In this document: positions 17,315 to 33,526 of the stretch, one piece after another
How positions within the stretch are numbered: the stretch's first letter is position 1
Layout of the letters: the number at the start of each line of letters is the position of its first letter
From: Roseibium salinum
Lineage (GTDB): Bacteria; Pseudomonadota; Alphaproteobacteria; Rhizobiales; Stappiaceae
Assembly: GCF_026240905.1 (NCBI RefSeq)
Contig: NZ_JAPEVI010000002.1
Location: 310,001-374,000 of the forward strand
Direction: 5' to 3'
Length of the DNA stretch: 64,000 nt
Notes under the pieces: generated by a model
Database searches by the model: none
What the model was told of the DNA's origin: nothing
Seen by the model: the letters and a program-made list of their open reading frames with translations, nothing else
Made by a program: the position numbers and the translations under genes

Positions 17315-17339
17315 AATCCTTCCACCGTCGCGTGGTTCC
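17315..17339 (-). promoter_or_regulatory. Possible EcfG-type promoter of the site-2 protease gene
   Basis: On the minus strand GGAAC (17339-17335) is followed after 16 bases by GATT (17318-17315). This keeps the GGAAC-N18-TT core of general stress promoters but not the full CGTT. The start codon is 37 bases downstream of the box. It is one of the weaker matches in the set. Confidence 0.35.
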
Positions 17340-17400
17340 GCCTGGAAGCCGTCTGATCCTGATGCATCCGCAGACGGCGCTTACAGTCCTCCGGTGCGCG

Positions 17401-18384
17401 TCAGGGAACCAGGACTGCGGCCCCTTGAAAGCGTCCCTCCCGCAGGTCGTCCAGCGCCTCGTTGGCTCTTTCCAGTAAATAGGGCGTAGTCACCGTCTTC
17501 ACACGGGCGCGCGGTGCGATCTTCAGGAACTCGGCCGCATCGGCGCGCGTCAGGTTGGCTACCGAGACGACCTGTCGCTCCTCCCACAGAATGCGGTAGG
17601 GAAAGGAGGGAATGTCGCTCATGTGGATGCCGCCGCAGACGACGCGGCCGCCTTTCTTCACCGCCTTCAGCGCCAGGGGAACCAGGTCACCCACAGGCGC
17701 GAACAGGATTGCGGCGTCGAGTTCGTCGGGCGGGCTGTCCTCGGATGCTCCTGCCCAAACGGCGCCGAGCGAGCGGGCATGGCTCTGGGCCGCCTCATCG
17801 CCCTTGCGGGTAAAGGCATAAACCGCACGTCCCTGCCAGGTCAGTATCTGGATCAGAATATGCGCGGCCGCGCCGAAGCCGTAAAGCCCGATCCGCCCGC
17901 CGTCGCCCGCCATCTTCAACGAGCGCCAGCCGATAAGACCCGCGCACATCAGCGGCGCGGCGGCCACCGGATCGTCAAAACCGTCCAAGGGAAATGCGAA
18001 TTCCGCATCCGCTATCACATGGGTCGCAAAGCCGCCATCGCGCGTATAGCCGGTAAACAAGGGTTTATCGCAAAGATTTTCACGTCCGCCGGCGCAGTAT
18101 TCGCAATGACCGCAAGTGTGGCCCAGCCACGGGATGCCGACGCGCTGATCCAAGTCGAGTGTCGATACGCCTTCGCCCCGCGCCACAACGCGGCCGACGA
18201 TTTCGTGGCCGGGAATGACCGGCAGCCTGGTGTCGGGCAGGTCGCCATCGACCACATGCAGGTCCGTCCGGCAAACGGCACAGGCTTCGACCCGGACGCA
18301 GATTTGACCGGCGCCTGGAACCGGATCCGGGCGCTCTTGGAGAACCAAACGCGTTCGCGGCGCGTTGAGTACCATGGCCTTCAT
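17401..18384 (-). CDS. Zinc-dependent alcohol dehydrogenase
   Basis: This 327-residue medium-chain dehydrogenase oxidises alcohols or reduces aldehydes. The catalytic zinc motif is CAVCRTDLHVVDGDL with GHEIVGRV. Structural zinc cysteines are in CGHCEYCAGGRENLCD. The nucleotide fold reads IGLYGFGAAAHI, so the usual GxGxxG is present as GFGAAA. It resembles the AdhA-like group often found in stress or solvent-exposure regions. It stands alone on the minus strand, with a 286-base gap to the divergent small gene. No stress-type promoter was found upstream. Confidence 0.85.
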   Translation of the reverse strand: MKAMVLNAPRTRLVLQERPDPVPGAGQICVRVEACAVCRTDLHVVDGDLPDTRLPVIPGHEIVGRVVARGEGVSTLDLDQRVGIPWLGHTCGHCEYCAGGRENLCDKPLFTGYTRDGGFATHVIADAEFAFPLDGFDDPVAAAPLMCAGLIGWRSLKMAGDGGRIGLYGFGAAAHILIQILTWQGRAVYAFTRKGDEAAQSHARSLGAVWAGASEDSPPDELDAAILFAPVGDLVPLALKAVKKGGRVVCGGIHMSDIPSFPYRILWEERQVVSVANLTRADAAEFLKIAPRARVKTVTTPYLLERANEALDDLREGRFQGAAVLVP

Positions 18385-18670
18385 GACAAAACGTCACCTT
18401 ATTCCGCTGCCGCTCCCATCGATCCGTGGAAAGCGGGCTCGGGATCCCAAAGGCGAGAACTTGCACCAATAGAAGGCCGGTGCATTGACCACAGTCAACG
18501 ACAGTCAGGTCATTTGCGGCTAGCCGGTATTTCTCGAACTCTTTGCCGCGTGCGCCTGAGGAGTTTCGTTTCGGCCCGGCACCGGCGGTTTTACCGTCTG
18601 CCCCACCGAAACGGAACGCACACCGGAGAGTTTGAAAATGCGGGCCAGGCCCGTTGGGAGGAGGAGAAAG

Positions 18671-18964
18671 ATGATAAAAGGGGCTGCGAAGGTTCATGAA
18701 CCGGCCGTCTCGGATGAGCAAGCTGAAACCCTCTGGTGGCCGGATTTCCGCGTGGTTGCGCTCGACAATGCCAGATGGCAGGTCAAGCTCTTATCGGCCA
18801 AGGCGTGCGATTGGGTCCGCAGGAGAACCGAACCGCCTTTGGCTTCCGATGCCGGAAAGCTGATGATCACGGAGCTTGCCAGCCTCAACCTTCTGATTTG
18901 CAGCGCGCGTGAGAGTGGCCTGAAGATCGAATATGTCGGTCCGCATCAGGTGGTCAGGTTCTGA
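18671..18964 (+). CDS. Small conserved-looking protein of unknown function
   Basis: A 97-residue soluble protein that I do not recognise. It starts MIKGAAKVHEP and contains a tryptophan-rich patch (LWWPDFRVV), a central helix (LSAKACDWVRRRTEPPL) and a C-terminal strand pair ending EYVGPHQVVRF. The ribosome site GGGAGGAGGAGAAAG before ATG 18671 is very strong, which supports expression. The preceding 286 bases hold no other gene. There is a GGAAC at 18613 but without a matching -10 element. Confidence 0.6.
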   Translation: MIKGAAKVHEPAVSDEQAETLWWPDFRVVALDNARWQVKLLSAKACDWVRRRTEPPLASDAGKLMITELASLNLLICSARESGLKIEYVGPHQVVRF

Positions 18965-19031
18965 GCGGCGCGAATAAGGGCCGATACCATCGCTGGCAGT
19001 TCCCCGCGGCAACGGAAATCCGGCACGTGCC

Positions 19032-19056
19032 GGAACCTTCTTCCAAAATCGCCGTT
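19032..19056 (+). promoter_or_regulatory. EcfG-type general stress promoter, perfect match
   Basis: GGAAC (19032-19036), 16 bases, CGTT (19053-19056). This is an exact match to the promoter type read by EcfG sigma factors in Alphaproteobacteria. It lies 36 bases before the flavodoxin-family gene start. Confidence 0.7.
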
Positions 19057-19091
19057 CGCCGCTTGAGGTCCGGCAGACGAAAGGAAACATC

Positions 19092-19715
19092 ATGGCCCAG
19101 GCGCTTTCCGCATTCGCATTGAACTGCTCGCTCAAATCCGCTTCCGACAACGAGCGCTCGTCAACCGACAAGATGCTGGACGACCTGCTTTCGGCGCTTG
19201 CCAGGTTCGGCGTCAAATCGGAGGTCGTGCGTGCGGTTGATGAAAACCTGAAGCCGGGTGTGCTCTCGGATATGGGCGACGGCGATGACTGGCCGCGGCT
19301 GCGCGGCAAGATCGTCGACGCGGACATCTTCGTGCTCGGCACACCCATCTGGCTCGGACATCCGTCCAGCGTCGCCCAGCGGGTGCTCGAACGGCTCGAT
19401 GCCTTTCTCGGCGAAACGGACGACCGTGGCCGCATGCCCGCCACCGGCAAGGTGGCTCTCGTGGCGGTCGTCGGCAACGAGGACGGCGCACATCACTGCC
19501 ATGCCGCCTGCTTCCAGGCTCTCAACGACGTCGGCTTCACCATTCCGGCCGGCGGCGGCTGTTACTGGGTGGGCGAGGCCATGCAGGCCACAGACTACAA
19601 GGATCTCGACAAGATCCCCGACCCGGTCCGCTCGACAATCGAGACGGCGGCCTCCAACGCGGTTCACCTGGCCGATCTTCTCAAGAAAGACCGCTACCCC
19701 GGCATTCAATCCTGA
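19092..19715 (+). CDS. Flavodoxin-family / NADPH-dependent FMN reductase-like protein
   Basis: This 207-residue protein has a flavodoxin-like fold that binds FMN and probably transfers electrons from NAD(P)H. The phosphate-binding loop is NCSLKSASDNERSSTDKMLDDL at the N-terminus. The segment ADIFVLGTPIWLGHPSS matches the second FMN contact, and VGNEDGAHHCHAACFQALNDVGF the third. The ATG at 19092 follows AAAGGAAAC. A perfect stress-type promoter precedes it, suggesting a role in redox protection. Confidence 0.82.
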   Translation: MAQALSAFALNCSLKSASDNERSSTDKMLDDLLSALARFGVKSEVVRAVDENLKPGVLSDMGDGDDWPRLRGKIVDADIFVLGTPIWLGHPSSVAQRVLERLDAFLGETDDRGRMPATGKVALVAVVGNEDGAHHCHAACFQALNDVGFTIPAGGGCYWVGEAMQATDYKDLDKIPDPVRSTIETAASNAVHLADLLKKDRYPGIQS

Positions 19716-19746
19716 AAGTGGCAGTTGCATGTCCGGGGTAGCAGCC

Positions 19747-20808
19747 TCAAGTGCTGGTCGCCTTCTTGAGTGCGTCAAAATCCCTACAGTCGGACAGGAA
19801 CAGAGCCAGGGGCTGCAGGGCCGGGATCTTTGCGCAAAAAATCATCATCACCAGCGACATGGGTACCGCCACAAGGGCGCCGGCCATGCCCCACACCCAG
19901 GTCCAGAACATTAGCGCGATCAGCACGACGAGCGGAGACAGCGACAACTCCCGCCCCTGAAACTTGGGATCGATGTAGTTGCCCATGATCTGCTCGATCA
20001 CCAGGAGTCCGATCCCGTAGATCGACGCCCACCAGGGAGGCAGTTGCAGGAAGGCGAAGGCTGCGGGCAATAGCCCTGCTACCAGAGAGCCGACGGTGGG
20101 CACATAGTTCAGAAGGACCGCGAGCAGTCCCCATACGAGCACGAAGTCGAGATCCCACATCCAGCTCCACAGGGCATAAAGCGCACCCGTGGCCACGCCG
20201 ATCACCGTGCGGACGACAAGATACCAGCGCACGCGCCCCGCGATGGAGAAAATCGCGTCGCGATATTCCTTGCCGTTGGCGTACCCGGATGCGGACTGCA
20301 GCTTGGCCGAGAGCGCCGGCGTTTCGACCAGCATCAACACCACGAGAAAGAGGATCAGCGAGAGAATTCCTGCGAGCGTGGTGGCCGACTGGAGAGTGAG
20401 CGTGACGAGGCTGAGCACCGGGTCGATGAGCCGGGCAGACAGCGCCTCTTCCCCGCCGTCCTTCATCAGGTTCGAAAAATCGATCCAATTCGACAACCTG
20501 GTCGCGTAGGCGGCAATGGCATCTTCATAGTCGGGCAGCTTGATGGTGATCTGACGCGCGGCCAGGAGCAAGCCACCGATAAAGATGGAAAACACGATCA
20601 GGATCACGATCACTGCGGCGAGATGGCCGAGCCAGCGTAACCCGTGGGGCAGGCGCTGGCGAAACAGCGCATCAACGGGCCACACCGCCATGGTGATGAA
20701 AAATGCGAGAGCGAGGGTGGAGGATACGAGGCTGGTGGCGTGAAGGGCAGCGACGGTGAGCAGGGCCGCCACGAGCCCGACGACCCAGGTCACAACTTGA
20801 AGATTCAT
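19747..20808 (-). CDS. AI-2E family transporter (YdiK/PerM-like membrane protein)
   Basis: This 353-residue membrane protein has about eight hydrophobic helices. The family hallmarks are the loop ending in LWSWMWDLDFVLVWGLLAVLLNYVPTVGS (about 220-250) and the C-terminal QIMGNYIDPKFQGRELSLSPLVVLIAL. Members export small molecules or ions; the autoinducer-2 role of the name applies to few of them. It is convergent with the flavodoxin-like gene. A stress-type promoter candidate lies upstream. Confidence 0.88.
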   Translation of the reverse strand: MNLQVVTWVVGLVAALLTVAALHATSLVSSTLALAFFITMAVWPVDALFRQRLPHGLRWLGHLAAVIVILIVFSIFIGGLLLAARQITIKLPDYEDAIAAYATRLSNWIDFSNLMKDGGEEALSARLIDPVLSLVTLTLQSATTLAGILSLILFLVVLMLVETPALSAKLQSASGYANGKEYRDAIFSIAGRVRWYLVVRTVIGVATGALYALWSWMWDLDFVLVWGLLAVLLNYVPTVGSLVAGLLPAAFAFLQLPPWWASIYGIGLLVIEQIMGNYIDPKFQGRELSLSPLVVLIALMFWTWVWGMAGALVAVPMSLVMMIFCAKIPALQPLALFLSDCRDFDALKKATST

Positions 20809-20866
20809 CGTTCCCTTGCTTCCCTCTCATCATGATGTGCCGGTACGCACTTTGTCTTCTTCCTTA

Positions 20867-20892
20867 AACAGCGTCGGGAGCCGTCTGGTTCC
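20867..20892 (-). promoter_or_regulatory. EcfG-type promoter candidate for the AI-2E gene
   Basis: On the minus strand GGAAC (20892-20888), 17 bases, TGTT (20870-20867). One base differs from CGTT and the TT core is kept. The start codon of the AI-2E family gene is 59 bases downstream. Confidence 0.5.
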
Positions 20893-20929
20893 GAAAGCTC
20901 CTCCGCGCAGCTTGAGATGAGGGCTGTTG

Positions 20930-21943
20930 TCAGCCGCCGCGCGGCTTCTCCAGCACCACGTTTTTCGCCTCCTTGTCCTCTCGCAGGCCCTTGTAGACCC
21001 CATGACGGACGCTGCCGCCGGCCGTAAATTCGGTGAATTCGATCTCGGCGACCAGATCGGGCGTCACATAGCGCACCGAACGCGCGATATTGGCCGGCAC
21101 CTCGGCAAAGGGCGAGGTCTTGCGGGCGCGCCTTTCTAACAACTTCGCCAACTTGTCCATCGTATCTTCATCGAAGCCCGTGCCGACGCGTCCGCGGTAG
21201 ATCAATTCGTCGCCTTCATACGCCCCGAGCAGGAGCGAGGCGAAGGGCCGGGCCGGCTTGTCGGAAAGGCTGTAGCCGCCGATGACGAGTTCCTGCCGCT
21301 TCGAACATTTCACCTTCAACCAGCTTTTTCCGCGCCCGGAGCGGTAGCGGTCGTCACGCTTGGCGATGATGCCCTCGTGGCCGGCGGAGCAGAGTTCCTG
21401 CAGTACCTTGTCCGCGTCCCCCTCGACGTGCTCTGAATACAGAAGAGGACCATTCTTGCTTTTCAGCAGCTTTTTCAGGCGGCGCTTGCGCTCCGTCAGC
21501 GGCTCGCCGGCCAGGTCCTTGCCGTCCTCTTCGAGAAGGTCGAAGACGAAGCACGACATGTCGCCTCCGGAGGAAAGCGATTTTTGAAGTGACGAGAAAT
21601 CGGTTCTGCCATTGGAATTGAAGGCGACGATCTCTCCGTCCATGAGCGTACCGCTGGTGGGCAACTCTGCTGCCGCGGCGGCGATTTGAGCGAACCGATC
21701 CGTCCAGTCCTTCCCGCCGCGCGTGTAGACCCGGGCGGTGCCGTCGCCGATGGCGATCAGTGCGCGGTAGCCGTCATATTTCATCTCGGACAGCCACTGC
21801 CCGCCCTCCGGCGCCGTGTCAACCAGCGTGGCAAGCTGCGGCTCGCGCCACTTGGGCAGCTTGCGCGCAGCCTTCGAGGACCGGCCGCCTTCCGCGCGGT
21901 TCTCCTTCGCCTTGGTCGATGCCTTTTTGGAGCCGCTGGCCAT
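20930..21943 (-). CDS. ligD: ATP-dependent DNA ligase, LigD-type, stand-alone ligase domain
   Basis: This is the ligase module of bacterial non-homologous end joining, 337 residues. The adenylation motif is SEMKYDGYRA with K55 as the AMP-accepting lysine. Other ligase motifs are GTLMDGEIVAF, FVFDLLEEDGKDL, EGIIAKRDDRYRSGRGKSWLKVKC and an OB-fold domain from about 225. A K-rich tail occupies the first 30 residues. The polymerase and phosphoesterase domains of full LigD are absent, so they may be encoded elsewhere. It lies 6 bases downstream of ku in the same operon. Confidence 0.92.
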   Translation of the reverse strand: MASGSKKASTKAKENRAEGGRSSKAARKLPKWREPQLATLVDTAPEGGQWLSEMKYDGYRALIAIGDGTARVYTRGGKDWTDRFAQIAAAAAELPTSGTLMDGEIVAFNSNGRTDFSSLQKSLSSGGDMSCFVFDLLEEDGKDLAGEPLTERKRRLKKLLKSKNGPLLYSEHVEGDADKVLQELCSAGHEGIIAKRDDRYRSGRGKSWLKVKCSKRQELVIGGYSLSDKPARPFASLLLGAYEGDELIYRGRVGTGFDEDTMDKLAKLLERRARKTSPFAEVPANIARSVRYVTPDLVAEIEFTEFTAGGSVRHGVYKGLREDKEAKNVVLEKPRGG

Positions 21944-21949
21944 CGGTCT

Positions 21950-22804
21950 TTATGCGCTCTTCTTTCGGCTGCCCGACTTGCTGCTTGCCGACGACTTCGA
22001 CCTGGATTTGCCGCCAGACGACTTGACGCTCTTTTGCAGCGCCGCCATCAGGTCCACGACGTTTCCGGCTCCCTCGGCTTCCTTGTCGGTCTTCACGCGG
22101 GTGGTGCCTTTCTTGCGCTTGCCGATCTTTTCCTCGACCAGGGCATGGATTGCCTCCGAATAGCGGTCCTTGAAGGCCGCGGCGTCGAAGGGTGCCGTTT
22201 TGCGTTCGATGAGCTCCTTGGCGACCGAAAGCAGATCCTTCTCAGCTTTCTTGTCGGAAATGGATGCAAAGAAGGGGTCCGTCTTGCGGATCTCGTTTTC
22301 ATAATGGAGCGTCTCCAGAAGCAGGCCCGTGCCGCAGGGCCGAACGGCCGCCAGGTGCTCCTGTCCGCGCATGGCGAGTTGGCCGATGCCGGCCTTGCCG
22401 GTTTCCTTGAGCGCATCGCGCACCACGCGGAAGGCGTCTTCCGCCAGTTCGTCGCGCGGGCTGAGGAAATAGGGCTTGTCGAAATAGATGGGCGGGATTT
22501 CGGTCACGTCGACAAACTGAACGAGCTCAAACGTCTTTTTCGATTCCAGCTTGATTTCCTCGATCTCGTCGGGATTGATCAGCACATATTCGTCTTTGTC
22601 GAGCTCGTATCCCTTCCAGATATCCTCGCTTTCCACCGGCCCGACGCCGGGCACCACCTTCTGATAGCGCACGCGCTTGCCGGTGGGTTTGTGAATCTGG
22701 CGGAACGAAATCTGGGCGCTCCGCTCGGTGGCCGAATACATTTCGACGGGGATAGCCACCAGCGAAAGCCGCAGCTGACCTTTCCATACGGGACGCGTGG
22801 CCAT
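21950..22804 (-). CDS. ku: Ku protein, DNA end-binding factor of non-homologous end joining
   Basis: Bacterial Ku of 284 residues. It forms a homodimeric ring on double-strand ends and recruits LigD. The core begins ATRPVWKGQLRLSLVAIPVEMYSATE and includes ISFRQIHKPTGKRVRYQKV and VVRDALKETGKAGIGQLAMRG in separate blocks. The C-terminal tail (about 255-284) is lysine/serine-rich and likely binds DNA. The ATG at 22804 follows the stop of a 25-codon leader ORF by 7 bases. A perfect stress-type promoter lies upstream of that leader. Confidence 0.95.
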   Translation of the reverse strand: MATRPVWKGQLRLSLVAIPVEMYSATERSAQISFRQIHKPTGKRVRYQKVVPGVGPVESEDIWKGYELDKDEYVLINPDEIEEIKLESKKTFELVQFVDVTEIPPIYFDKPYFLSPRDELAEDAFRVVRDALKETGKAGIGQLAMRGQEHLAAVRPCGTGLLLETLHYENEIRKTDPFFASISDKKAEKDLLSVAKELIERKTAPFDAAAFKDRYSEAIHALVEEKIGKRKKGTTRVKTDKEAEGAGNVVDLMAALQKSVKSSGGKSRSKSSASSKSGSRKKSA

Positions 22805-22811
22805 ATCTGCC

Positions 22812-22889: not shown

Positions 22890-22911
22890 GGAAAACCTCC
22901 GTTTTCAAGCG

Positions 22912-22937
22912 AACGGAGAAAAGCGGTAATTCGTTCC
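22912..22937 (-). promoter_or_regulatory. EcfG-type general stress promoter of the ku-ligD operon, perfect match
   Basis: On the minus strand GGAAC (22937-22933), 17 bases, CGTT (22915-22912). An expected start of transcription near 22905 gives a short leader before the 25-codon ORF at 22889. This places end joining under general stress control. Confidence 0.7.
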
Positions 22938-23130: not shown

Positions 23131-23155
23131 GGAACTCAATCGCCGGCGCCGCATT
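23131..23155 (+). promoter_or_regulatory. EcfG-type promoter candidate upstream of the sigma factor
   Basis: GGAAC (23131-23135), 16 bases, CATT (23152-23155). One base differs from CGTT. It lies 59 bases before the sigma-factor start and would give autoregulation or control by a master EcfG. Confidence 0.55.
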
Positions 23156-23213
23156 GAAGCGTTGTGCAACAGAGAAAAATCAACCTCAACACAAAATTGT
23201 CCGGGAGGACTGC

Positions 23214-23804
23214 ATGGCACCTCTTCCCCGTGTGGACGACAGACATGCTCGCCACCAGCAAACCATCTACCGGCCCAACGACGAAATCGTCGAGTTGATC
23301 CCGGCGTTGCGCGCTTTTGCGCGCACCTTCTACTACGACACCAACGACGCCGACGACCTCGTCCAGGAGACACTGACCAAAGCGATTGCGAGAATCCACC
23401 AGTTTACGCCCGGCACAAACATGAAGTCGTGGCTCTTCACCATCATGCGCAACACCTTCTACACCAAGATCAGGGTGCAGAAGCGGGAAACGCCGGCAAG
23501 CGCCGACTGCGCTTCACTGAGAGTGGCGGTGGATTCCACGCAGGAATGGTCGATGAAGGGCAAGGAACTGTCTCGCGCCCTGCACCGGCTGTCCCCCCTG
23601 CAGCGTGAGGTTCTTGTTCTTATCGGCGTGATGGGCGTGAGCTATGAAGATGCCGCCGTAATCCTCGGATGCGCCATAGGCACCGTGAAAAGCCGCCTCA
23701 ACCGGGCCCGCTGGAAACTGCTCGAGGAACTTGGCGAGGACAGCCCCGCTTCGAGCGTGGAACATGACGACGCCTTTACCGTCGGCTCGCTGCAAAAAGG
23801 CTGA
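23214..23804 (+). CDS. ECF RNA polymerase sigma factor, EcfG-like
   Basis: This 196-residue protein has sigma region 2 (LRAFARTFYYDTNDADDLVQETLTKA, then GTNMKSWLFTIMRNTFYTKIR) and region 4 (LHRLSPLQREVLVLIGVMGVSYEDAAVILGCAIGTVKSRLNRAR), quoted here in blocks. It resembles the EcfG group that runs the alphaproteobacterial general stress response. No NepR anti-sigma or PhyR gene is next to it, so it is probably a paralogue and not the master copy. I chose ATG 23214 because GGGAGGAC precedes it; an ATG 20 codons upstream lacks one. Confidence 0.85.
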   Translation: MAPLPRVDDRHARHQQTIYRPNDEIVELIPALRAFARTFYYDTNDADDLVQETLTKAIARIHQFTPGTNMKSWLFTIMRNTFYTKIRVQKRETPASADCASLRVAVDSTQEWSMKGKELSRALHRLSPLQREVLVLIGVMGVSYEDAAVILGCAIGTVKSRLNRARWKLLEELGEDSPASSVEHDDAFTVGSLQKG

Positions 23805-24577: not shown

Positions 24578-24621
24578 CACCGCCCCGTCGCGCGGCCACA
24601 GTCGAGAGTGAGGAAAACATC

Positions 24622-24966: not shown

Positions 24967-26040
24967 CTAACCTTCCGGCCGGATTGTTGCCCTCAACCAC
25001 CGCAGAACCAGCGACTCCTCCTTGTCCAGCCCGCTCAAGGGCTTGCGGTAGCGGCGGCGAAGTTCGTTGATTTCGTCGCCCAGGGTCCCCGCTTCCCAGG
25101 CGTCCAGGACTGCCGGGTGTATGTAGCCCTTTCGGCAGACCGTCCGCGTGTTCCGCAACTCCTGCGCAACACGGTCGATTATCCGATTGGCCGCGATGGT
25201 CCGCCTGCGCTTTGCCGACGGGCACTCGGCGTCGGCCAGCAGAACGGTCGCCAGCGATGTCGCTGCCCAGGTGCGGAAGTGTTTGGAGGTGAACTCCTCT
25301 CCGGCGGCCTCGCGAATGTAATCGTTCACGTCATGGGAGTGGATGGGAACACGGGTCTTGCCGTCGACATACTGAAACAGGTGCTGCCCCGGCAGATCCT
25401 CGATCGTGGCGATGATCCGGGCGATGCGGCGGTCCACGAGTTTCAGCTTCCACTCACGGCCGGACTTGCCCCGGAAGGCAAAGCGGACAGACGAACTGCT
25501 CGTGGCCACGTGTTGCGAACGGAGCGTGGTCAGCCCGAAACTCCGGTTCTCCCGCCGGTAGCTGTCGTTGCCGACGCGGATCAGGGTCTTGTCGAGGAGC
25601 CGCACGACCACCGCCAACACCTTCTCCCGCGGGAGGCCCGGGCGGGAGAGATCCGTGTCGACGCGCGCACGCAGCGCCGGCAGGCGCTCGGCAAAGTCGA
25701 CCAGGCTGGCGAACTTGACCGCGTCGCGAAAGGCAGTCCAATCCGGATGATAGCGGTACTGTTTCCGTCCGCGCTGGTCACGTCCGGTTGCCTGGATATG
25801 CCCGTTGGCGAGCGGACAGATCCAGACATCCGTCCAGGCCGGCGGTATCGCCAGGGAACGGATGCGTTTGAGTACTTCAGGATCCTTCACCCGCGAGCCG
25901 TCGGGCCGCTTGTAGGTGAAGCCCCTGCCCGCCCTGCGCCGGACGATCCCGGCATCGGTATCGCACACATGCACAAGCTGCGGATCATCCTGAAGATCTG
26001 TCAGGAACGGAACGGTATTCGCGGCTGGACTTATATCCAT
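24967..26040 (-). CDS. DNA topoisomerase IB (bacterial/poxvirus type)
   Basis: This enzyme relaxes supercoils by nicking one strand through a 3'-phosphotyrosine. It has about 357 residues. The N-terminal part shows YKRPDGSRVKDPEVLKRIRSL and IPPAWTDVWICP; the catalytic part has TLIRVGNDSYRRENRSFGLTTL, FRGKSGREWKLKLVDRRI and HDVNDYIREAAGEEFTSKHFRTW. The active tyrosine is probably in KGYIHPAVLDAW. I prefer ATG 26040, which has GGAAG upstream; 26052 is possible. It ends 26 bases from the shared terminator. Confidence 0.9.
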   Translation of the reverse strand: MDISPAANTVPFLTDLQDDPQLVHVCDTDAGIVRRRAGRGFTYKRPDGSRVKDPEVLKRIRSLAIPPAWTDVWICPLANGHIQATGRDQRGRKQYRYHPDWTAFRDAVKFASLVDFAERLPALRARVDTDLSRPGLPREKVLAVVVRLLDKTLIRVGNDSYRRENRSFGLTTLRSQHVATSSSSVRFAFRGKSGREWKLKLVDRRIARIIATIEDLPGQHLFQYVDGKTRVPIHSHDVNDYIREAAGEEFTSKHFRTWAATSLATVLLADAECPSAKRRRTIAANRIIDRVAQELRNTRTVCRKGYIHPAVLDAWEAGTLGDEINELRRRYRKPLSGLDKEESLVLRWLRATIRPEG

Positions 26041-26083
26041 GGCTTCCGACATCGTTGGAAAAAGGAACGCGGTGATGCCGTTA

Positions 26084-26109
26084 AAAGCCGAGGGCGGAGA
26101 TTTGGTTCC
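26084..26109 (-). promoter_or_regulatory. Possible EcfG-type promoter of the topoisomerase IB gene
   Basis: On the minus strand GGAAC (26109-26105), 17 bases, CTTT (26087-26084). The TT core is kept but the -10 deviates from CGTT. The start codon is 32 or 44 bases downstream. Confidence 0.35.
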
Positions 26110-26165: not shown

Positions 26166-26190
26166 GGAACTTAAGGGCGCCTCCGTGGTT
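26166..26190 (+). promoter_or_regulatory. Possible EcfG-type promoter upstream of the CtaG-like gene
   Basis: GGAAC (26166-26170), 16 bases, GGTT (26187-26190). If used, the message would start only a few bases before ATG 26199 or about 26 bases before ATG 26223. Confidence 0.35.
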
Positions 26191-26198
26191 CAACGTCC

Positions 26199-26768
26199 AT
26201 GAGTGGAGCGCTCTCAATACAAATGACCACGCATATTCTTGCGATGAACGTCGTCGCGCCTCTTGCGGTGTGGCTGTGGCCCGTGGTGCGCAGACGGACC
26301 GCGGCACTCTCCTACGGCGTTGTCGCGGCAGCCGGTCTGCAGCTTGCGCTCATGTGGGGCTGGCACATGCCGGAGGCCATGCGGTCAGCCGCCTCCCATC
26401 CGGCGCTCGCCGCTGCCATGCATGCCTCCTTGTTTCTTTCGGCATTGCTGTTCTGGGGAGCGGTGTTCCAGGAGATGGACCGGGCTCCGTGGCGGTCACT
26501 CGCGGCACTGCTCCTCACGGGCAAGTTCTTCTGTCTTCTGGGAATTCTGCTCGTCTTCGCCCCCCGGCCCCTCTATGCGTCCGCCCAAGCGCCCCTGGGA
26601 TCTATTGCCGGCGTTCTCGCGGACCAGCAGATGGCCGGGCTCCTGATGATCATCGCCTGTCCCGTAACCTATGTGCTCGGCAGCATCCTCATAGTCCGCC
26701 GCTGGATGGTGGTGGACGAGATTGCCGGCGGATGGCGCCCGGTATCCGTTCACGGTGATCATGACTGA
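26199..26768 (+). CDS. ctaG: Cytochrome c oxidase assembly protein, CtaG/caa3 family
   Basis: This 189-residue integral membrane protein belongs to the Caa3_CtaG family, whose members help copper delivery or assembly of caa3-type oxidases. About five helices are seen; HILAMNVVAPLAVWLWP near the start, MWGWHMPEAM, and HASLFLSALLFWGAVFQ are typical. The C-terminal half has DQQMAGLLMIIACPVTYV. Start 26199 keeps the LSIQMTTHILAMN segment seen in relatives; ATG 26223 is an alternative. It heads the oxidase gene group, 132 bases before the cytochrome gene. Confidence 0.85.
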   Translation: MSGALSIQMTTHILAMNVVAPLAVWLWPVVRRRTAALSYGVVAAAGLQLALMWGWHMPEAMRSAASHPALAAAMHASLFLSALLFWGAVFQEMDRAPWRSLAALLLTGKFFCLLGILLVFAPRPLYASAQAPLGSIAGVLADQQMAGLLMIIACPVTYVLGSILIVRRWMVVDEIAGGWRPVSVHGDHD

Positions 26769-26900
26769 TCCGGCAACCCATATCGGGCTGCCGGCCAGGC
26801 AGGTCGCGCGGTGCAGTGCGCCCGGCCGAACGACCCGAACAGGCGGTCAGACCGGGACAAGCCGCCGTGAACCGGCATCAGAACGACCGGAGCGGTAACG

Positions 26901-28001
26901 GTGAATCTTCCGCGTCGACTGACCCCGCAGAATGGTTTCCTCTGGCTGGCCGTCGCCGGCCTTCTCGGGGCCTTCCTGATCGGCATTGTTGCTCTCGTCT
27001 TTGCCATGTCCGGGCTCTACAACGTCTCGGCCGCGGTCAAGCATTTTCAAATCACGGAGAAGCTGATCCAGATCACACTTCACCGCTCGATCTCGTTCCA
27101 CAGCGACGACGAGGTACCGGTCGACCTGAAGGACCAGAACCTCGCCCGGCTGGGCGCCCGGCATTTCGATCTCGGCTGTGCGCCATGTCACGGCGCCCCC
27201 GGCACGCCTGCGAGCGTCGTGATGCAATCGATGTATCCAACCCCTCCCGACCTGACGCGCGCGGTGGACAAATTCACGCCTGGGGAACTGGCCTGGATCA
27301 TCGAGAACGGACTGAAATACACCGGCATGCCCTCCTGGCCCGGGCACGGCAGGAAAGACGAAGTCTGGCCGCTGGTCGCCTTCCTGCATCAATTGCCGGA
27401 TATGGGACTGCGGGAATATTCCCAATATGCCGGCGCCGTCAAAGAAGTCCCTTCGAGCGAACTTTCCTCGTGCAATTCGTGCCACGGCGGGAAAAACCGG
27501 CCGCCGGTGGCGCCCATGGTGCCTTCTCTGTCGGGCCAGAGTGCCACCTATCTCCAGCGTGCGTTGACGGAGTACCGGTCCGGCACACGCCAGAGCGGGA
27601 TGATGGAACCGATAGCGGCGAAACTGGATGATGCGGCGATCCAAAAGCTCGCTAATACCTTTGCCGGGGAGTCCCGTGCGCCACAGGACGCTCCTGCGGT
27701 GGATGGCAACATCGCTCTGGGACAACGGATCGCAACATCCGGCGACCCGCAGAACGCAATACCGGCCTGCCTGTCTTGCCACGGGACAAATGCCTCCGAC
27801 AAGTTCCCCAGGCTGAACGGCCTGTCGCGCACCTATATCACCCGCCAGTTGTCCCTGTTCAAGGCGGGCGTGCGCGACCAGACGGCCTATGGCGCAGTGA
27901 TGGCGACCGTTGCACGCCGGCTGAACCGTGAGCAGATGGACGCTGCCGCCGCCTACTTTGCCTCCACCGCTACCACCCCGGCAGCGGGAGGCGGCCAATG
28001 A
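26901..28001 (+). CDS. Triheme c-type cytochrome
   Basis: A 366-residue membrane-anchored periplasmic cytochrome. An N-terminal helix (about 13-38, LWLAVAGLLGAFLIGIVALVF) anchors it. Three CxxCH heme sites are visible: CAPCH (about 94), CNSCH (about 194) and CLSCH (about 293). The fold looks like one monoheme domain plus a diheme cytochrome c4-like pair. It probably carries electrons to the oxidase encoded next to it. The GTG start at 26901 has GGAG upstream. The stop overlaps ctaC by four bases. Confidence 0.88.
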   Translation: MNLPRRLTPQNGFLWLAVAGLLGAFLIGIVALVFAMSGLYNVSAAVKHFQITEKLIQITLHRSISFHSDDEVPVDLKDQNLARLGARHFDLGCAPCHGAPGTPASVVMQSMYPTPPDLTRAVDKFTPGELAWIIENGLKYTGMPSWPGHGRKDEVWPLVAFLHQLPDMGLREYSQYAGAVKEVPSSELSSCNSCHGGKNRPPVAPMVPSLSGQSATYLQRALTEYRSGTRQSGMMEPIAAKLDDAAIQKLANTFAGESRAPQDAPAVDGNIALGQRIATSGDPQNAIPACLSCHGTNASDKFPRLNGLSRTYITRQLSLFKAGVRDQTAYGAVMATVARRLNREQMDAAAAYFASTATTPAAGGGQ

Positions 28002-28990
28002 CCGGTCTCGCACGGAAGGCACTCACGCTCGGTTCAGCGTCGCTCGCCAGCGGCTGTGGCGGTATCCAGTCGGCCCTCCAGCCGACCGGCCGGGAAGCGG
28101 CCGACGTGGAGCTCCTGTTTATGGTCGTCACCTGGTTGAGTGTCGCCATTACGCTGCTCGTGCTGGCGGCGATCGCCGTCGCGCTGTGGGGGTCCGACGG
28201 CTGGCGCAGCCGGCTCGGGCGCGAATGGCCGATCATCGGCGGCGGCATCGTCCTGCCGGTGCTGGTCCTCTCGGGCCTGCTCGCCTACGGCCTCATCATC
28301 ATGAACATCGGTGCTTCGCGCGCCTCGCGCGCCGAGGGGCCGGGCATAACCGTGATCGGCAAACAATGGTGGTGGAAGGTCGTCTATACCACTGAAGACG
28401 GGCAGCGTGTCGTCAGCGCCAACGAACTCAGGATACCGATCGACAGGCCGGTCGCGCTCAGGCTCGAGACCGAGGACGTGATCCACAGCTTCTGGGTGCC
28501 GCAGCTGGCCGGCAAGCTAGACATGATCCCGGGCCGCACAAACACGCTGACGATCGAGGCGGACGAGCCCGGCATCAGCCGCGGCCAATGCGCGGAATAT
28601 TGCGGCGGCGCCCATGCACTGATGTCGTTCTACGTGGTGGCGATGCCGCCGGACGCCTACGAGGACTGGCTGGCGGCGGAGGCCGCGCCGGCCCAAGAGC
28701 CCGGCGGTGCCGAGGCCCGCGAGGGCAAGACACTGTTCATGGAAAACGGCTGCGGTGGTTGCCACGCGATCCGCGGAACGCAAGCGAAAGGCACGATCGG
28801 CCCGGACCTGACGCATGTCGGCGGTCGCCACTCGCTTGGCGCAGCCACGCTGGCCAATGACGCGGAAGCCTTCGCGAACTGGATCCGGAACAACCAGCGC
28901 ATCAAGCCGGACAACCTCATGCCCGGTTACCGGAACCTGGAGCGCGACGAGCTTTCGGCAATCGCAATCTATCTGGAGGGGCTGGACTGA
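27998..28990 (+). CDS. ctaC: Cytochrome c oxidase subunit II with C-terminal cytochrome c domain (caa3 type)
   Basis: A 330-residue lipoprotein-like subunit II. LASGC near residue 20 is a lipobox. Two helices (about 40-65 and 78-102) anchor it. The CuA site is GQCAEYCGGAHALM, and the electron-entry tryptophans are in GKQWWWKV. After about residue 235 comes a cytochrome c domain with CGGCH and the distal methionine in NLMPGYRNL. This fusion defines caa3 oxidases. It accepts electrons from cytochrome c and passes them to subunit I. Confidence 0.95.
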   Translation: MTGLARKALTLGSASLASGCGGIQSALQPTGREAADVELLFMVVTWLSVAITLLVLAAIAVALWGSDGWRSRLGREWPIIGGGIVLPVLVLSGLLAYGLIIMNIGASRASRAEGPGITVIGKQWWWKVVYTTEDGQRVVSANELRIPIDRPVALRLETEDVIHSFWVPQLAGKLDMIPGRTNTLTIEADEPGISRGQCAEYCGGAHALMSFYVVAMPPDAYEDWLAAEAAPAQEPGGAEAREGKTLFMENGCGGCHAIRGTQAKGTIGPDLTHVGGRHSLGAATLANDAEAFANWIRNNQRIKPDNLMPGYRNLERDELSAIAIYLEGLD

Positions 28991-28991
28991 C

Positions 28992-31529
28992 ATGAGCCGG
29001 ACGGAAGACACGCTTCCCAATCCCGAGCCCCGCTCCGAAGCGGAGGTGGAAGAGCTTCGCCGTATCTGGGCAACGCCCGGCGGCTTCAAGCTCGTCACCG
29101 CCGTGAACAACACGGTGATCGGCCTCCTTTACATCGGCACCGCCTTCCTGATGTTCCTTCTGGCCGGCGGGCTGGCGCTGCTGATGCGCACGCAGCTCGC
29201 GGTGCCGGAGAACGATTTCATCGGCCAGGACCTCTACAACCAGATGTTCACGGTGCACGGCACGACGATGATGTTCCTGTTCGCCGTGCCGGCCGTGGAG
29301 GCCCTGGGCGTGATGCTCCTGCCACAGATGCTTGCCGCCCGCGACCTTCCCTTCCCCCGCCTCAGCGCATTCGCCATCTGGGCCTATGTTGTGGGCGGGC
29401 TGGTGTTCTTTTCCACCATCTTCTACGACCTCGCGCCCAAGGGCGGCTGGTTCATGTACACGCCGCTGACGCTCAAGGAGTTCTCTCCCGGCGACAATGC
29501 CGATTTCTGGCTGCTCGGAATCGGTTTCATCGAAATCTCCGCCATTGCCGGGGCGATCGAGATCGTGGTCGGCACGCTGCGCACGCGCCCGCCCGGCATG
29601 TCGCTGACCAAGATGCCGATCTTCGCCTGGTCGATGCTGATCTTCGCGGCGATGATCATGTTCGCCTTTCCGGCGGTCATTCTCGGCACCATGCTGCTCG
29701 AGATCGAGCGCTCCTTCGGCTGGCCGTTCTTCACCGCCGCAAAGGGCGGCGACCCGCTTCTGTGGCAGCATCTCTTCTGGTTCTTCGGCCATCCCGAGGT
29801 CTACATCATTTTCCTTCCCGCCGCCGGCCTTGTGTCGATGATCGTCCCGGCGATGGCACAGCGCCCGCTGATCGGCTACAGGCTGATCGTCGTGGCGCTG
29901 GTCGGCACCGGCTTCTTTTCCTTCGGCCTGTGGGTGCACCACATGTTCACCACAGGCATCCCGTCGCTGAGCCTGGCCTTCTTCTCGGCGGCCAGCATGG
30001 CGGTCGCGGTTCCCTCCGGCATCCAGGTGTTTTCCTGGATCGCCACCATGGCGGCCAGCAAGGGACGTTTCCGCATCACGACACCATCACTCTTCGTGCT
30101 CGGTTTTCTGGCGATTTTCACTATCGGCGGGCTGACCGGCGTGATGGTGGCCATCGTTCCGCTCGATTTTCAGGTGCACGATTCCTACTTCGTCGTCGCC
30201 CATTTTCACTACGTGCTGATCGGCGGCATGGTCTTTCCGCTCTTTGCCACCTTCTACTACTGGATGCCGATGGCGACCGGCAGGCTGCTGTCCGAGAGAG
30301 CCGGGCGATGGGTGTTCTGGCTGATGTTCGCCGGCTTCAACATCTCCTTTTTCCCCATGCACCTTACCGGGCTGAAAGGCATGCCGCGCCGCGTGTGGAC
30401 CTATCCGGAGGGGGTCGGCTGGGACTGGCTCAACATGGTCTCCACGATCGGCGCCTATGTGCTTGCGGCCGGTGTCGCGGTCTTCGTCGTCGATGTCGCG
30501 CGAAGCCTGCGCCGCCCGGCCGATGCGCCGGACAATCCGTGGAACGCGGGAACGCTCGAATGGCTTCCGAACGACGTCTATTCGACGCGCAGCATTCCCC
30601 TTATCACCAGCCGCGAGCCGCTGTGGGACCAGCCGGACCTGCCGCGCCAGGTGCGTTCAGGCCAGCACTTCCTGCCCAATGCGCCGACAGGCGGGCGGGA
30701 AACGATCGTCACCTCGGCGATCGAGGCGAGACCGCAATACATCATCCAGATGCCCGGTCCCGGATGGGAACACCTCGTCGCCGCCGTGTTCACCGCGGCG
30801 TTCTTCCTGCTTCTGACCGTCAAGATCGTCGTGCCCGCCATTGTCTGCGGCGTGATCGCCGTTGCCGCATGCCTGGTGTGGGTCTGGGGGCTCGACCCCG
30901 GGCCATCCAAGGGGTCGGTGGAGATCGGCGGGGGACTGACCGTGCCAACCTATGCCAGCGGCCCCTCTTCACATTCCTGGTGGGCGATGGTGGTGCTGGT
31001 CTTCGTGGCAGGCTCTCTCTATGTCGCCTTCATCTTTTCCTATCTCTACCTGTGGGTCGTCTCCCCGGACATCTGGGCGCCGCAGGGCTCACCATCCCTG
31101 CCGCCGCTCTTCTGGCCGGTGGCCGGAGCCGTTCTTGCGTGTGGCGGCGCAGCGGCCATGAAAGCCGCAGGAAGACTGCTGCCGGAGCCCGGCACGGGCG
31201 GTGCAACGGCACCCCTGCTCAATTGCGTTGGCGCCCTTGCGCTGGCGGGAGCCGTGGTTCTTGAGGTTTACGGCCATTGGCAGACCGGGTTGCGCCCGAC
31301 CGAAAACGCCTATGGCGCCCTCGTCTACATGCAGAGTGCTCTCAACGGACAAGTCGCCTTCGTGATCCTGATCATGAGCGGCTTTGCGATCGCGCGCATG
31401 CTGACCGGCAGGCTGGACCGGGTCCGCCGGGTCAGCTTCGACAATTGCGCGGTGCTCTACTACTACGCCGCAGCCCAGCTTCTGTTCGGGCTGCTTCTGA
31501 TCCACGGGTTTCCAAGGGGCGCGGCATAG
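28992..31529 (+). CDS. ctaD: Cytochrome c oxidase subunit I + III fusion (caa3-type terminal oxidase)
   Basis: An 845-residue membrane protein joining subunit I (about 1-560) and a subunit III-like part (about 640-845). In subunit I the heme and CuB histidines are in FTVHGTTMMF, FGHPEVYI, VHHMFTTG and HFHYVLIGG. GHPEVYI has the glutamate of the D-channel, as in A1-type heme-copper oxidases. The fusion makes a separate ctaE gene unnecessary. It reduces oxygen to water while pumping protons. The ATG is at 28992; earlier in-frame starts overlap ctaC. Confidence 0.93.
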   Translation: MSRTEDTLPNPEPRSEAEVEELRRIWATPGGFKLVTAVNNTVIGLLYIGTAFLMFLLAGGLALLMRTQLAVPENDFIGQDLYNQMFTVHGTTMMFLFAVPAVEALGVMLLPQMLAARDLPFPRLSAFAIWAYVVGGLVFFSTIFYDLAPKGGWFMYTPLTLKEFSPGDNADFWLLGIGFIEISAIAGAIEIVVGTLRTRPPGMSLTKMPIFAWSMLIFAAMIMFAFPAVILGTMLLEIERSFGWPFFTAAKGGDPLLWQHLFWFFGHPEVYIIFLPAAGLVSMIVPAMAQRPLIGYRLIVVALVGTGFFSFGLWVHHMFTTGIPSLSLAFFSAASMAVAVPSGIQVFSWIATMAASKGRFRITTPSLFVLGFLAIFTIGGLTGVMVAIVPLDFQVHDSYFVVAHFHYVLIGGMVFPLFATFYYWMPMATGRLLSERAGRWVFWLMFAGFNISFFPMHLTGLKGMPRRVWTYPEGVGWDWLNMVSTIGAYVLAAGVAVFVVDVARSLRRPADAPDNPWNAGTLEWLPNDVYSTRSIPLITSREPLWDQPDLPRQVRSGQHFLPNAPTGGRETIVTSAIEARPQYIIQMPGPGWEHLVAAVFTAAFFLLLTVKIVVPAIVCGVIAVAACLVWVWGLDPGPSKGSVEIGGGLTVPTYASGPSSHSWWAMVVLVFVAGSLYVAFIFSYLYLWVVSPDIWAPQGSPSLPPLFWPVAGAVLACGGAAAMKAAGRLLPEPGTGGATAPLLNCVGALALAGAVVLEVYGHWQTGLRPTENAYGALVYMQSALNGQVAFVILIMSGFAIARMLTGRLDRVRRVSFDNCAVLYYYAAAQLLFGLLLIHGFPRGAA

Positions 31530-31913
31530 ATGGCAAAGGACGGCAACTTCTTTCGATCCGGGCGCGAACCTTCCACCGCCGGAACACTGGTTTTCCTGAT
31601 GTTCGGACCCTTGGTGTGGGCCGGCCACCTTACCATCGTTTATGGCGGGCACACGCTCCTGTGCCTGCGCGGCGAGCTGGCCGGCGTGGCCGACGTCTAT
31701 GTTCTGACAATCACGGCCGCAGCCGTGTTGATCCTTGGCGCGTTCGTGTTCCGGATTGCGAGTTGGGAGCGGGTGATGGGGCTCCTGACCGGCGAAGATG
31801 CGAACAGGACCACCCGCCGTACTGCCCGCCTGCTCGCCATCCTGTCGCTGATCGCAGTTCTGTGGAGCGGCGCAACGGTGGGATTGGTGGCCGCCTGCGT
31901 GCAAGGCCGGTGA
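31530..31913 (+). CDS. Small membrane protein of the oxidase operon
   Basis: A 127-residue protein with about three hydrophobic helices (about 15-35, 52-76, 96-120). I do not recognise a characterised family; similar small membrane proteins end caa3 operons in Rhizobiales. The ATG directly follows the stop of the fused oxidase gene. A role in oxidase stability or assembly is inference from position only. Confidence 0.7.
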   Translation: MAKDGNFFRSGREPSTAGTLVFLMFGPLVWAGHLTIVYGGHTLLCLRGELAGVADVYVLTITAAAVLILGAFVFRIASWERVMGLLTGEDANRTTRRTARLLAILSLIAVLWSGATVGLVAACVQGR

Positions 31914-31954
31914 GACAGGTTGTCCAGCAAAAGACGGTCCGAAGGCACCGGCGA

Positions 31955-31979
31955 GGAACCTATGCGCGCGCCAGCGGTT
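31955..31979 (+). promoter_or_regulatory. EcfG-type promoter candidate upstream of small ORF and udgX
   Basis: GGAAC (31955-31959), 16 bases, GGTT (31976-31979). It keeps the GGAAC-N18-TT core. The 53-residue ORF starts 48 bases downstream, then udgX. Confidence 0.45.
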
Positions 31980-32026
31980 GTTTTCCTAAACACCCCAATT
32001 CGGGCTGAACAACCAGCGAGGCCAAG

Positions 32027-32188
32027 ATGATTATATCCGACATTCTCTGGTTTGCGGCTGTTGCGCTGGGGCCGCTGGCACTCGCAGCCGCCATAATCTA
32101 CGCGATCTTCAGGCGCAGACGGCTCACGAGGAGCGAGCGCGAGCGCCAGAAGCGCGGTGTTCGGCACCTTTACAAGGACGAGCCGTAG
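32027..32188 (+). CDS. 53-residue single-pass membrane protein
   Basis: A short gene: ATG 32027 to TAG 32186-32188. It encodes one hydrophobic helix (about residues 7-27, FAAVALGPLALAAAIIYAIF), then a strongly basic tail (RRRRLTRSERERQKRG) and the end RHLYKDEP. GAGG lies 7-10 bases before the ATG. Such small helix-plus-basic-tail proteins are common in Rhizobiales but uncharacterised. It ends 4 bases before the udgX start, so the two are likely co-expressed. Confidence 0.6.
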   Translation: MIISDILWFAAVALGPLALAAAIIYAIFRRRRLTRSERERQKRGVRHLYKDEP

Positions 32189-32192
32189 TCCC

Positions 32193-32789
32193 ATGTCGGA
32201 GGCAAGCTCCCTGAAGGAACTGGCGGAAGCGGAAGCCGAATGCCGCCGCTGCCCACTGTGGCGCGACGCCACGCAGGCTGTGCCAGGAGCCGGCCGACGG
32301 AATGCGCGGCTGATGCTGATCGGCGAACAGCCGGGCGACAAGGAAGATCTTGCCGGCGAACCGTTCGTCGGCCCGGCAGGGGCTATCCTCAACAAGGCGA
32401 TGGCCGACGCGGGCCTATCGCGCGAGGAAATCTTCCTCACCAATAGCGTGAAGCATTTCAAGCATGAGCAGCGCGGCAAGCGCCGTCTGCACAAGAGGCC
32501 GAATGCCGGCGAGATCGACCAGTGTCGCTGGTGGCTGGGCCTGGAGCTGCGGCTGGTCCGGCCGAAACTGGCGGTGGCGCTCGGTGCGACGGCTTTTCGC
32601 GGCGTTGCGGGACGACCGGGCAGGATTTCCGACTTGCGCGGCCGCGTCCTGGACGACGTCTGCGAGGTTCCCGTGTTTGTCACGGTGCATCCCTCATTCC
32701 TGCTGCGCATTCGCGACAACCGCGAAAGCGCGTACCGGCAGTTCGTCCGCGATCTGGAGGCGTGTGGACGACTGGCCGCGCAGATGTAG
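32193..32789 (+). CDS. udgX: UdgX-type uracil-DNA glycosylase
   Basis: A 198-residue protein of the uracil-DNA glycosylase superfamily. Motif 1 reads GEQPGDKEDLAGEPFVGPAG, and VHPSFLLR is motif 3. After NSVKHFKHEQRG comes KRRLHKRP, the insertion typical of UdgX. In the characterised mycobacterial UdgX a histidine of this loop makes a covalent bond with the abasic site after uracil excision; the histidine is present here. The four cysteine positions for an iron-sulphur cluster fit CRRC and later C residues. The ATG at 32193 is chosen because the homology starts at about residue 8. Confidence 0.88.
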   Translation: MSEASSLKELAEAEAECRRCPLWRDATQAVPGAGRRNARLMLIGEQPGDKEDLAGEPFVGPAGAILNKAMADAGLSREEIFLTNSVKHFKHEQRGKRRLHKRPNAGEIDQCRWWLGLELRLVRPKLAVALGATAFRGVAGRPGRISDLRGRVLDDVCEVPVFVTVHPSFLLRIRDNRESAYRQFVRDLEACGRLAAQM

Positions 32790-32907
32790 CGTCTCTGCGC
32801 GCTGTCCATGAAAAACCGCCGTGTCCGGCGAAGTGTCGAAACGTGGCGTGGCTCGCCTCATCTCTTCGCACACTCGCCGCTCGGAATGAGGCTCGCTCGC
32901 GCCAGCT

Positions 32908-33396
32908 TCAGACAGCCTCGCGCTGGAGATAGGTTGTCGTGACTTCAGTGAGGTTTTCGATAAGCCACGCCGCCATGGTTTCTTCTTCGCGCTGTATGTC
33001 CTCGCACACTTTGGCGGTTTTTGCGTCACCGGCCACCCGGGCGGCAGCTGCAAGGATCTTGTAGGCTGCGATCTCCATATGCTCGAACGTGTAGCTTGCC
33101 AGTGCGCTCTTGACGACCTCATCGGAGACGAACATGCCGCTGAAGGTCTGCAGACCGGCGGTAAACTTGCCGGCAGCGTCCTTCATACCCGACGTGCTGG
33201 TACCGCGGGCCTTTAGGCAATCCTCAAGGCGTTCGCGCTGCGACTGGGTTTCCGAGATGTGCTGCTGAATGCGCGCCTTCAGTTCGGGAAAGTTCTCGAT
33301 CCGGTCCGCCTGTGCTTTCAGCACCTGTTCCGCCTGTTCTTCCATCGCGTGGGCATCGCGCAGCCACTGGTTCAAGGTCTCGTTGATATCGGCCAT
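32908..33396 (-). CDS. DUF892 (YciE/YciF) ferritin-like protein
   Basis: A 162-residue, all-helical protein of the DUF892 ferritin-like family. Metal-ligand-like glutamates and histidines occur in HAMEEQAEQVL, HISETQSQRERLE, YTFEHMEIAAYK and REEETMAAWL. Members are induced by osmotic, oxidative or general stress; their chemistry is poorly known. Start 33396 has GAGGA upstream; the frame upstream has no homology. A stress-type promoter candidate lies in front of it. Confidence 0.9.
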   Translation of the reverse strand: MADINETLNQWLRDAHAMEEQAEQVLKAQADRIENFPELKARIQQHISETQSQRERLEDCLKARGTSTSGMKDAAGKFTAGLQTFSGMFVSDEVVKSALASYTFEHMEIAAYKILAAAARVAGDAKTAKVCEDIQREEETMAAWLIENLTEVTTTYLQREAV

Positions 33397-33432
33397 GTCG
33401 GTGTTCCTCGCGTTGCAGCTTGATGTCAGTCC

Positions 33433-33457
33433 AACAGCCGTGGCGCCGATTGGTTCC
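33433..33457 (-). promoter_or_regulatory. EcfG-type promoter candidate of the DUF892 gene
   Basis: On the minus strand GGAAC (33457-33453), 16 bases, TGTT (33436-33433). One base differs from CGTT. The start codon is 37 bases downstream. Confidence 0.55.
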
Positions 33458-33501
33458 CCGTTTCCCGTTGGAGCGCGCTGACGGAGGACCTGCCGGTTGA
33501 G

Positions 33502-33526
33502 GGAACCGGAACCGTGCCCGTGCGTT
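33502..33526 (+). promoter_or_regulatory. EcfG-type general stress promoter, perfect match
   Basis: GGAAC (33502-33506), 16 bases, CGTT (33523-33526). The next start codon (33539) is only 12 bases after the box, so the message would be almost leaderless. It faces away from the DUF892 promoter 45 bases away. Confidence 0.65.

Follow-up and report, generated by a model that had tools for sequence, protein, structure and literature searches.

The main finding of this work is a physical cluster of ten EcfG-type promoter sites, of the form GGAAC-N16/17-NNTT, in about 16 kb (17315-33527) of a 64-kb stretch of Roseibium salinum DNA, which is called the window here and is numbered from its first base. 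Among the genes of the cluster is one for a sigma factor of the extracytoplasmic function (ECF) type that belongs to the EcfG family. Judged from sequence, the region is probably an accessory island of the general stress response, in which the canonical EcfG of the host would drive most of the promoters as well as the gene of the resident sigma factor, and the latter, an EcfG2-type factor, would extend the response. In such an accessory island, end joining would be linked to general stress promoters, together with topoisomerase IB and an alternative oxidase. The preliminary description of this DNA had proposed a regulon of EcfG with an EcfG-like sigma factor of its own. The physical cluster and the family of the sigma factor stood up, whereas the cluster proved to be one of several in the host genome, the largest lying on another contig (C3), and the sigma factor groups as an EcfG2-type paralogue and not as the canonical EcfG.

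Placement and clustering of the promoter sites

The pattern GGAAC-N16/17-NNTT matched the window 21 times, 11 times within genes and 10 times between them. All ten intergenic sites fall inside 17315-33527, all ten are oriented with a gene, and they lie 12-108 bp ahead of a called start, at the places and on the strands first described for them. Gene starts were taken from our own simple gene caller and, for homologues, from extrapolated alignments; in control stretches a site was counted as oriented when it lay on the gene strand within 250 bp ahead of a called start. As controls, 14 stretches of the host genome (20 kb each, 280 kb) gave 53 matches, of which 15 were intergenic and 4 oriented. 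Since the controls hold 4 sites in 280 kb, about 0.2 oriented intergenic sites are expected per 16.2 kb, against 10 observed, and the equal density across ordinary intergenic DNA that the preliminary description had named as evidence to the contrary was not seen. The genome-wide count that it had suggested as a background test gave no excess, as strict GGAAC-N16/17-CGTT occurs 125 times in the whole genome and its reversed pattern 149 times; therefore, the signal lies in placement and clustering. This null result, together with a looser scan of the window in which about 46 of 56 matches were within genes or at other spacings, is what favors chance clustering of the sites in GC-rich DNA between genes. 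We consider chance very improbable in view of the excess of oriented sites, of the spacer specificity (the host clusters hold 30 NGTT sites at spacers 16 and 17 and 16 at 14 other spacings pooled) and of the support that homologues give to the sites of ku and topoisomerase IB.

For ku, the 36 homologue loci compared (7 from the family search and 29 listed among the 73 genomes that gave a match) include 22 with a site within 250 bp upstream; few genomes of the window's family (5/87 at 1e-30) have a close Ku homologue. For topoisomerase IB, 18 of the 29 loci listed among 50 genomes with a match have an upstream site, which in 4 of the 18 overlaps the extrapolated start. In both sets the NGTT matches concentrate at the two right spacings, and GCTT boxes like that of the window stand ahead of three of the closest topoisomerase IB homologues (L219-L221). 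A site was also found for ctaG in 3 of 4 homologues, and for the site-2 protease in only 1 of 15. Of the three sites that had been suspected to be weak or due to chance (17315, 26084 and 26166), homologues thus support the topoisomerase IB and ctaG sites, and hardly the first.

Three sites are perfect to CGTT, as first noted. One of them (19032..19056, plus strand, GGAAC-N16-CGTT) lies 36 bp ahead of a gene for an NADPH-dependent FMN reductase-like protein (19092..19715, plus strand; Pfam FMN_red). Another (22912..22937, minus strand, GGAAC-N17-CGTT) lies 108 bp ahead of ku (21950-22804), which adjoins the end-joining ligase gene ligD (20930-21943) in a repair pair on the minus strand (20930..22804; NCBIfam Ku_bact and NHEJ_ligase_lig, both scores above the cut-off; Pfam); this LigD consists of the ligase part only. 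The third (33502..33527, plus strand, GGAAC-N16-CGTT plus one extra T) stands 12 bp ahead of a hypothetical gene at 33539, followed by two DUF421/YetF genes, the first at 34055 (33539..35015, plus strand; Pfam). TGTT boxes are found on the minus strand 59 bp ahead of the gene of an AI-2E family transporter (site 20867..20892, GGAAC-N17-TGTT; gene 19747..20808, minus strand, Pfam AI-2E_transport) and 37 bp ahead of that of a ferritin-like DUF892 protein (site 33433..33457, GGAAC-N16-TGTT; gene 32908..33396, minus strand, Pfam DUF892, longer frame 32908-33549). Two plus-strand sites read GGAAC-N16-GGTT, one (26166..26190) 33 bp ahead of ctaG and the oxidase genes (ctaG, cytochrome c, coxB, coxA and a small hypothetical gene, 26223..31913, plus strand; Pfam Caa3_CtaG, Cytochrome_CBB3, COX2, COX1), the other (31955..31979) 48 bp ahead of a small ORF (32027) and about 214 bp ahead of the start of udgX, for a UdgX-family uracil-DNA binding protein (32193..32789, plus strand; NCBIfam TIGR03914). 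The topoisomerase IB gene (24967..26052, minus strand; Pfam Topoisom_I and Top1B_N_bact, longer frame 24967-26307) has a site 32 bp ahead (26084..26109, minus strand) with GGAAC-N16/17 and a GGCTTTT box, and the sigma factor gene (23214..23804, plus strand; Pfam Sigma70_r2, Sigma70_r4_2 and PhyR_sigma2, frame from 23154; tree) has GGAAC-N16-CATT 59 bp ahead (23131..23155, plus strand). The weakest of the ten (17315..17339, minus strand, GGAAC-N16-GATT) stands 37 bp ahead of a gene for a site-2 protease with CBS domains (16100..17278, minus strand; Pfam Peptidase_M50, CBS). The genes behind the sites are those first named, except that DUF421 comes second, behind the hypothetical gene, and udgX follows the small ORF. 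Between the BON and topoisomerase genes, at 24909-24937, the loose scan also met a near-perfect palindrome, GGAACCGGCC...GGCCGGTTCC, with GGAAC...TT on both strands, which is more suggestive of a hairpin than of a promoter.

Elsewhere in the host, whose assembly comprises three contigs with the island on C2 (440,976 bases), the largest cluster has 23 oriented intergenic sites in 80 kb (C3:2540001-2620000) and surrounds phyR-nepR-ecfG, and a third one has seven in 20 kb (C1:245001-265000). Selection of the C1 and C3 stretches followed the listing of strict hits, so their density is no independent test; the other, control stretches were placed at spaced coordinates, blind to hits. The canonical locus also carries a second end-joining ligase with the phosphoesterase and ligase parts of LigD (6476-8029 of C3:2580001-2600000), 23 bp behind a GGAAC-N16-CGTT site. 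On C1, the seven sites (10102-16139 of the stretch) stand ahead of PRC-barrel genes, a copper-zinc superoxide dismutase, a cyclase-like gene and a GntR regulator.

The resident sigma factor and EcfG2 loci of relatives

A profile search with PhyR_sigma2 matched six places in the host genome: PhyR (C3:2581120, receiver domain confirmed), the canonical EcfG (C3:2581731), the window sigma factor and three further sigma factors (C3:4516729, 1821709 and 3604992). NepR was found at C3:2581553, with a second, weaker match below the family cut-off at C3:4428019. No NepR or PhyR profile match was found on C2, so that the window sigma gene lacks the adjoining nepR and phyR that mark a canonical ecfG. In a tree of 58 rows, a clade supported at 98/100 unites the window sigma factor with Rhizobium etli EcfG2, 20 EcfG2-like proteins and a further 9 named loci (31 rows), apart from 24 NepR-linked or canonical rows (EcfG1) and from the host's three other ECF sigma factors; long branches occur on several rows, including R. 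etli EcfG2. By its sequence, the window protein is thus an ECF15 sigma factor of the EcfG2 type. Two residues in its numbering separate the groups: position 72 is S in 22/23 EcfG2 and A in 23/24 EcfG1 proteins, and position 162 is L in 21/23 and V in 23/24, respectively; these positions probably belong to the -10 loop and the -35 helix. The window sigma factor has S72 and L162, but A95 where most EcfG2 proteins have G.

Another ECF sigma factor of the host might instead read the window promoters, given the three further PhyR_sigma2-like proteins, which are 32-37% identical to the window's. This seems improbable, since EcfG1 and EcfG2 rows together split from these three, which have long branches, with 96/93 support, and since the motif sites gather at EcfG1 and EcfG2 genes in all 20 loci of each kind, as described below.

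In the order of the window, probably Hyphomicrobiales judging from the named relatives, 215 of 297 genomes match the window sigma factor at 1e-20, canonical EcfG included. The relatives' set was composed of the best 20 EcfG2-like matches, one per genome, with 10 kb on each side (G370, with an internal stop, was excluded), and it was compared with 18 control stretches from the same genomes and with 20 NepR loci, 19 of them from these genomes and one from G055, as G004 had no NepR match. EcfG2 loci held 135 oriented intergenic NGTT sites over 399 kb, NepR loci 107 over 400 kb and controls 15 over 360 kb, and at least two such sites were present at 20/20, 20/20 and 4/18 loci, respectively. Eight of the 15 control sites fall in a single stretch (L143, genome G204), which may itself be part of an island. 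With 16 spacings tried, the two right ones gave 135 sites at EcfG2 loci against 20 for the other 14 pooled, and 107 against 13 at NepR loci. The ten named EcfG2 loci add 81 oriented NGTT sites in 284 kb. The relatives' EcfG2 loci lie both on named plasmids and on large contigs of up to 6.3 Mb. As separate observations, genome G204 has nine GGAACA...NGTTnGG sites in 50 kb (C11:46376-96501), well away from its EcfG2 gene (C11:323500) and perhaps forming a further island, and four of nine genomes searched in the window's genus (G044, G045, G051 and G053) have no NepR match at 1e-4.

The gene content of these islands is shared in part. When window genes were compared by tblastn with 30 EcfG2 loci, 10 kb on each side, matches were found for DUF892 at 8 loci, cytochrome oxidase subunit I at 6 and subunit II at 5, for the first DUF421 gene, its hypothetical neighbor, topoisomerase IB and BON at 4 each, for the ligase and UdgX at 2 each and for Ku at 1; none of these genes matched at the 18 control stretches, the 14 host controls or the 20 NepR loci. 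A fixed gene set is disfavored by the site-2 protease, FMN reductase and ctaG, which matched at 0/30 EcfG2 loci, and by AI-2E, which is commoner at NepR loci (5/20) than at EcfG2 loci (2/30).

Two promoter spellings and the reading of the window sites

Promoters of EcfG2 loci are spelled GGAACA...GGTTnGG and those of EcfG1 loci GGAACC...CGTT. In the larger EcfG2 subclade, which has 23 loci, A follows GGAAC in 91/136 sites, as against 16/107 at NepR loci (p 1e-16), and C precedes GTT in 31/136, as against 88/107 (p 4e-21). Both p-values are overstated, since independence holds neither for sites within a locus nor for related genomes. Of the 19 genomes that have loci of both kinds, 17 had the lower share of C at EcfG2 and 2 the higher share, and seven basal EcfG2 loci show a weaker shift (A 29/58, C 28/58). 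A genome count is suggestive only: in the 17 genomes that have an EcfG2 locus, GGAACA-N15/16-NGTTnGG occurs 173 times, or 166 if seven copies of one repeat in G219 are disregarded, against 64 for the reversed pattern, and in 13 other genomes of the family, of which 2 were checked for EcfG2, it occurs 66 times against 107. A literature search, with supplements and most subscription papers outside its scope, met neither this spelling nor such islands.

The window sites themselves are intermediate in spelling. None of the seven NGTT sites has A after GGAAC, and the base before GTT is C in three, G in two and T in two. In resampling of score sums, p was 0.015 for the comparison with EcfG2 sites and 0.075 for that with the C3 and C1 clusters of the host. 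The classifier is of moderate power (leave-one-locus-out correct for 101/136 EcfG2 and 89/107 EcfG1 sites). A plainly EcfG2-type spelling of the window promoters was rejected, as the A is missing and the scores are intermediate. From the lack of A and the resampling, the ten promoters lean to EcfG1, with room for both sigma factors. It is possible, though rather unlikely, that the resident EcfG2-type sigma factor reads most of the ten promoters itself and that the island is mainly its regulon, canonical EcfG only turning this factor on. The position of the sigma gene inside the cluster, its clade and its S72 and L162, the richness in such sites of all 20 EcfG2 loci of relatives and the mixed first base of the -10 box, as at EcfG2 loci, agree with that idea; the spelling after GGAAC and the resampling argue against it, and the clearest EcfG2-type sites of the contig lie about 80 kb off, at C2:425092 ahead of an SDR gene and C2:429252 ahead of a second DUF892 gene. 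These two belong to five oriented sites at 4007-17935 of C2:421001-440976.

A possible cascade and comparison with known systems

The promoter of ecfG2 itself differs from the rest of its islands. In 28 of 30 loci the called ecfG2 start has a site within 300 bp, the others being L100 (R. etli) and L122. Counting the window's own, these promoters have C first in the -10 box in 23/29 cases (56/203 among the other island sites), CATT in 12/29 (11/28 without the window's; 4/203) and A after GGAAC in 6/29 (125/203). Going by these bases, the ecfG2 promoter is EcfG1-like, often with CATT. In Sinorhizobium meliloti, the rpoE5 promoter is given as GGAAC-N16-CATT and rpoE5 is described as raised by RpoE2 (PMC6180224). 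Therefore, we propose a cascade from EcfG1 to ecfG2 to the island, which the promoter spelling and this analogy suggest.

We infer the regulatory steps as follows. Stress would activate PhyR, which would draw the anti-sigma factor NepR off canonical EcfG, all three being encoded on C3. EcfG would then start most of the GGAAC promoters of the window, with the ku-ligase pair, topoisomerase IB, the oxidase genes, DUF892, DUF421 and others, and also the CATT promoter of the resident sigma gene. EcfG2 might broaden the response or make it last longer at the promoters that it prefers, such as C2:425092 and C2:429252, and perhaps at window promoters too. For the order as a whole, we are inclined to think, with a little less confidence than for the window, that EcfG2-type sigma factors mark portable stress islands spelled GGAACA-N15/16-GGTTnGG instead of GGAACC-N15/16-CGTT, which core EcfG would switch on through a conserved CATT or CGTT promoter of ecfG2, as an accessory second tier.

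Several observations weigh against this interpretation, in addition to the missing genome-wide excess of the strict motif and the single supporting homologue of the site-2 protease. C before GTT in three of seven window sites is well below the share at EcfG1 loci, and R. etli has no site ahead of ecfG2. In that species EcfG1 and EcfG2 are reported to act largely in parallel, and EcfG1 is reported not to stimulate the ecfG2 promoter directly in Escherichia coli (PMC3892343). Overexpression of RpoE5 in S. meliloti has a single reported target, SMb20091 (PMC6180224), and such promoters are absent from the ecfG genes of Methylobacterium (PMC4814048).

Of the known systems, R. etli EcfG2 (PF00052, plasmid p42f), the described member of a plasmid-borne, non-canonical EcfG2 subgroup (PMC3892343), is close to the window in several respects. 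It shares the clade of the window sigma factor, has no adjoining NepR or PhyR gene and lies on another replicon than canonical EcfG, and its locus has oriented GGAAC sites, mostly GGAACA or GGTT, and ferritin-like genes. It differs in its 54% identity, its long branch and its lack of a site ahead of ecfG2, and the paper gives no EcfG2 motif and describes parallel action. That R. etli katG is a target of EcfG2 through a promoter of this kind was rejected, as no oriented site was found in p42f 1-34705. RpoE5 of S. meliloti (SMb21484, pSymB; PMC6180224), an ECF15 sigma factor 53% identical to the window's, falls outside the tree set; in BLASTP comparisons it is closer to EcfG2, with 53-60% identity to the best rows of that group and no more than 48% to the best four of EcfG1. 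Its promoter has the same box as site 23131, and GGAACA-type sites occur at pSymB 83-106 kb. Unlike the window sigma factor, RpoE5 is described with a possible anti-sigma gene adjoining, and one overexpression target is on record (PMC6180224).

End joining in S. meliloti is under RpoE2. In Mesorhizobium loti, a Ku gene is reported among the most heat-induced genes (PMC3989490). The canonical phyR-nepR-ecfG response, of which the host has the full module on C3, uses the same GGAAC-N16/17-CGTT promoters; the window, in contrast, has the sigma factor alone, and the islands of relatives spell the promoter otherwise. Variation in this motif is familiar, as GAAC-N16,17-C/GGTT is the form given for EcfG promoters in Methylobacterium (PMC4814048) and flexible -10 boxes are described in Sphingopyxis (PMC7083833). 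The R. etli study (PMC3892343) found no EcfG2 motif and states that the spread of extra EcfG copies had lacked a satisfactory explanation; the present comparison puts forward a concrete EcfG2 motif and a concrete cascade, both directly testable by promoter fusions.

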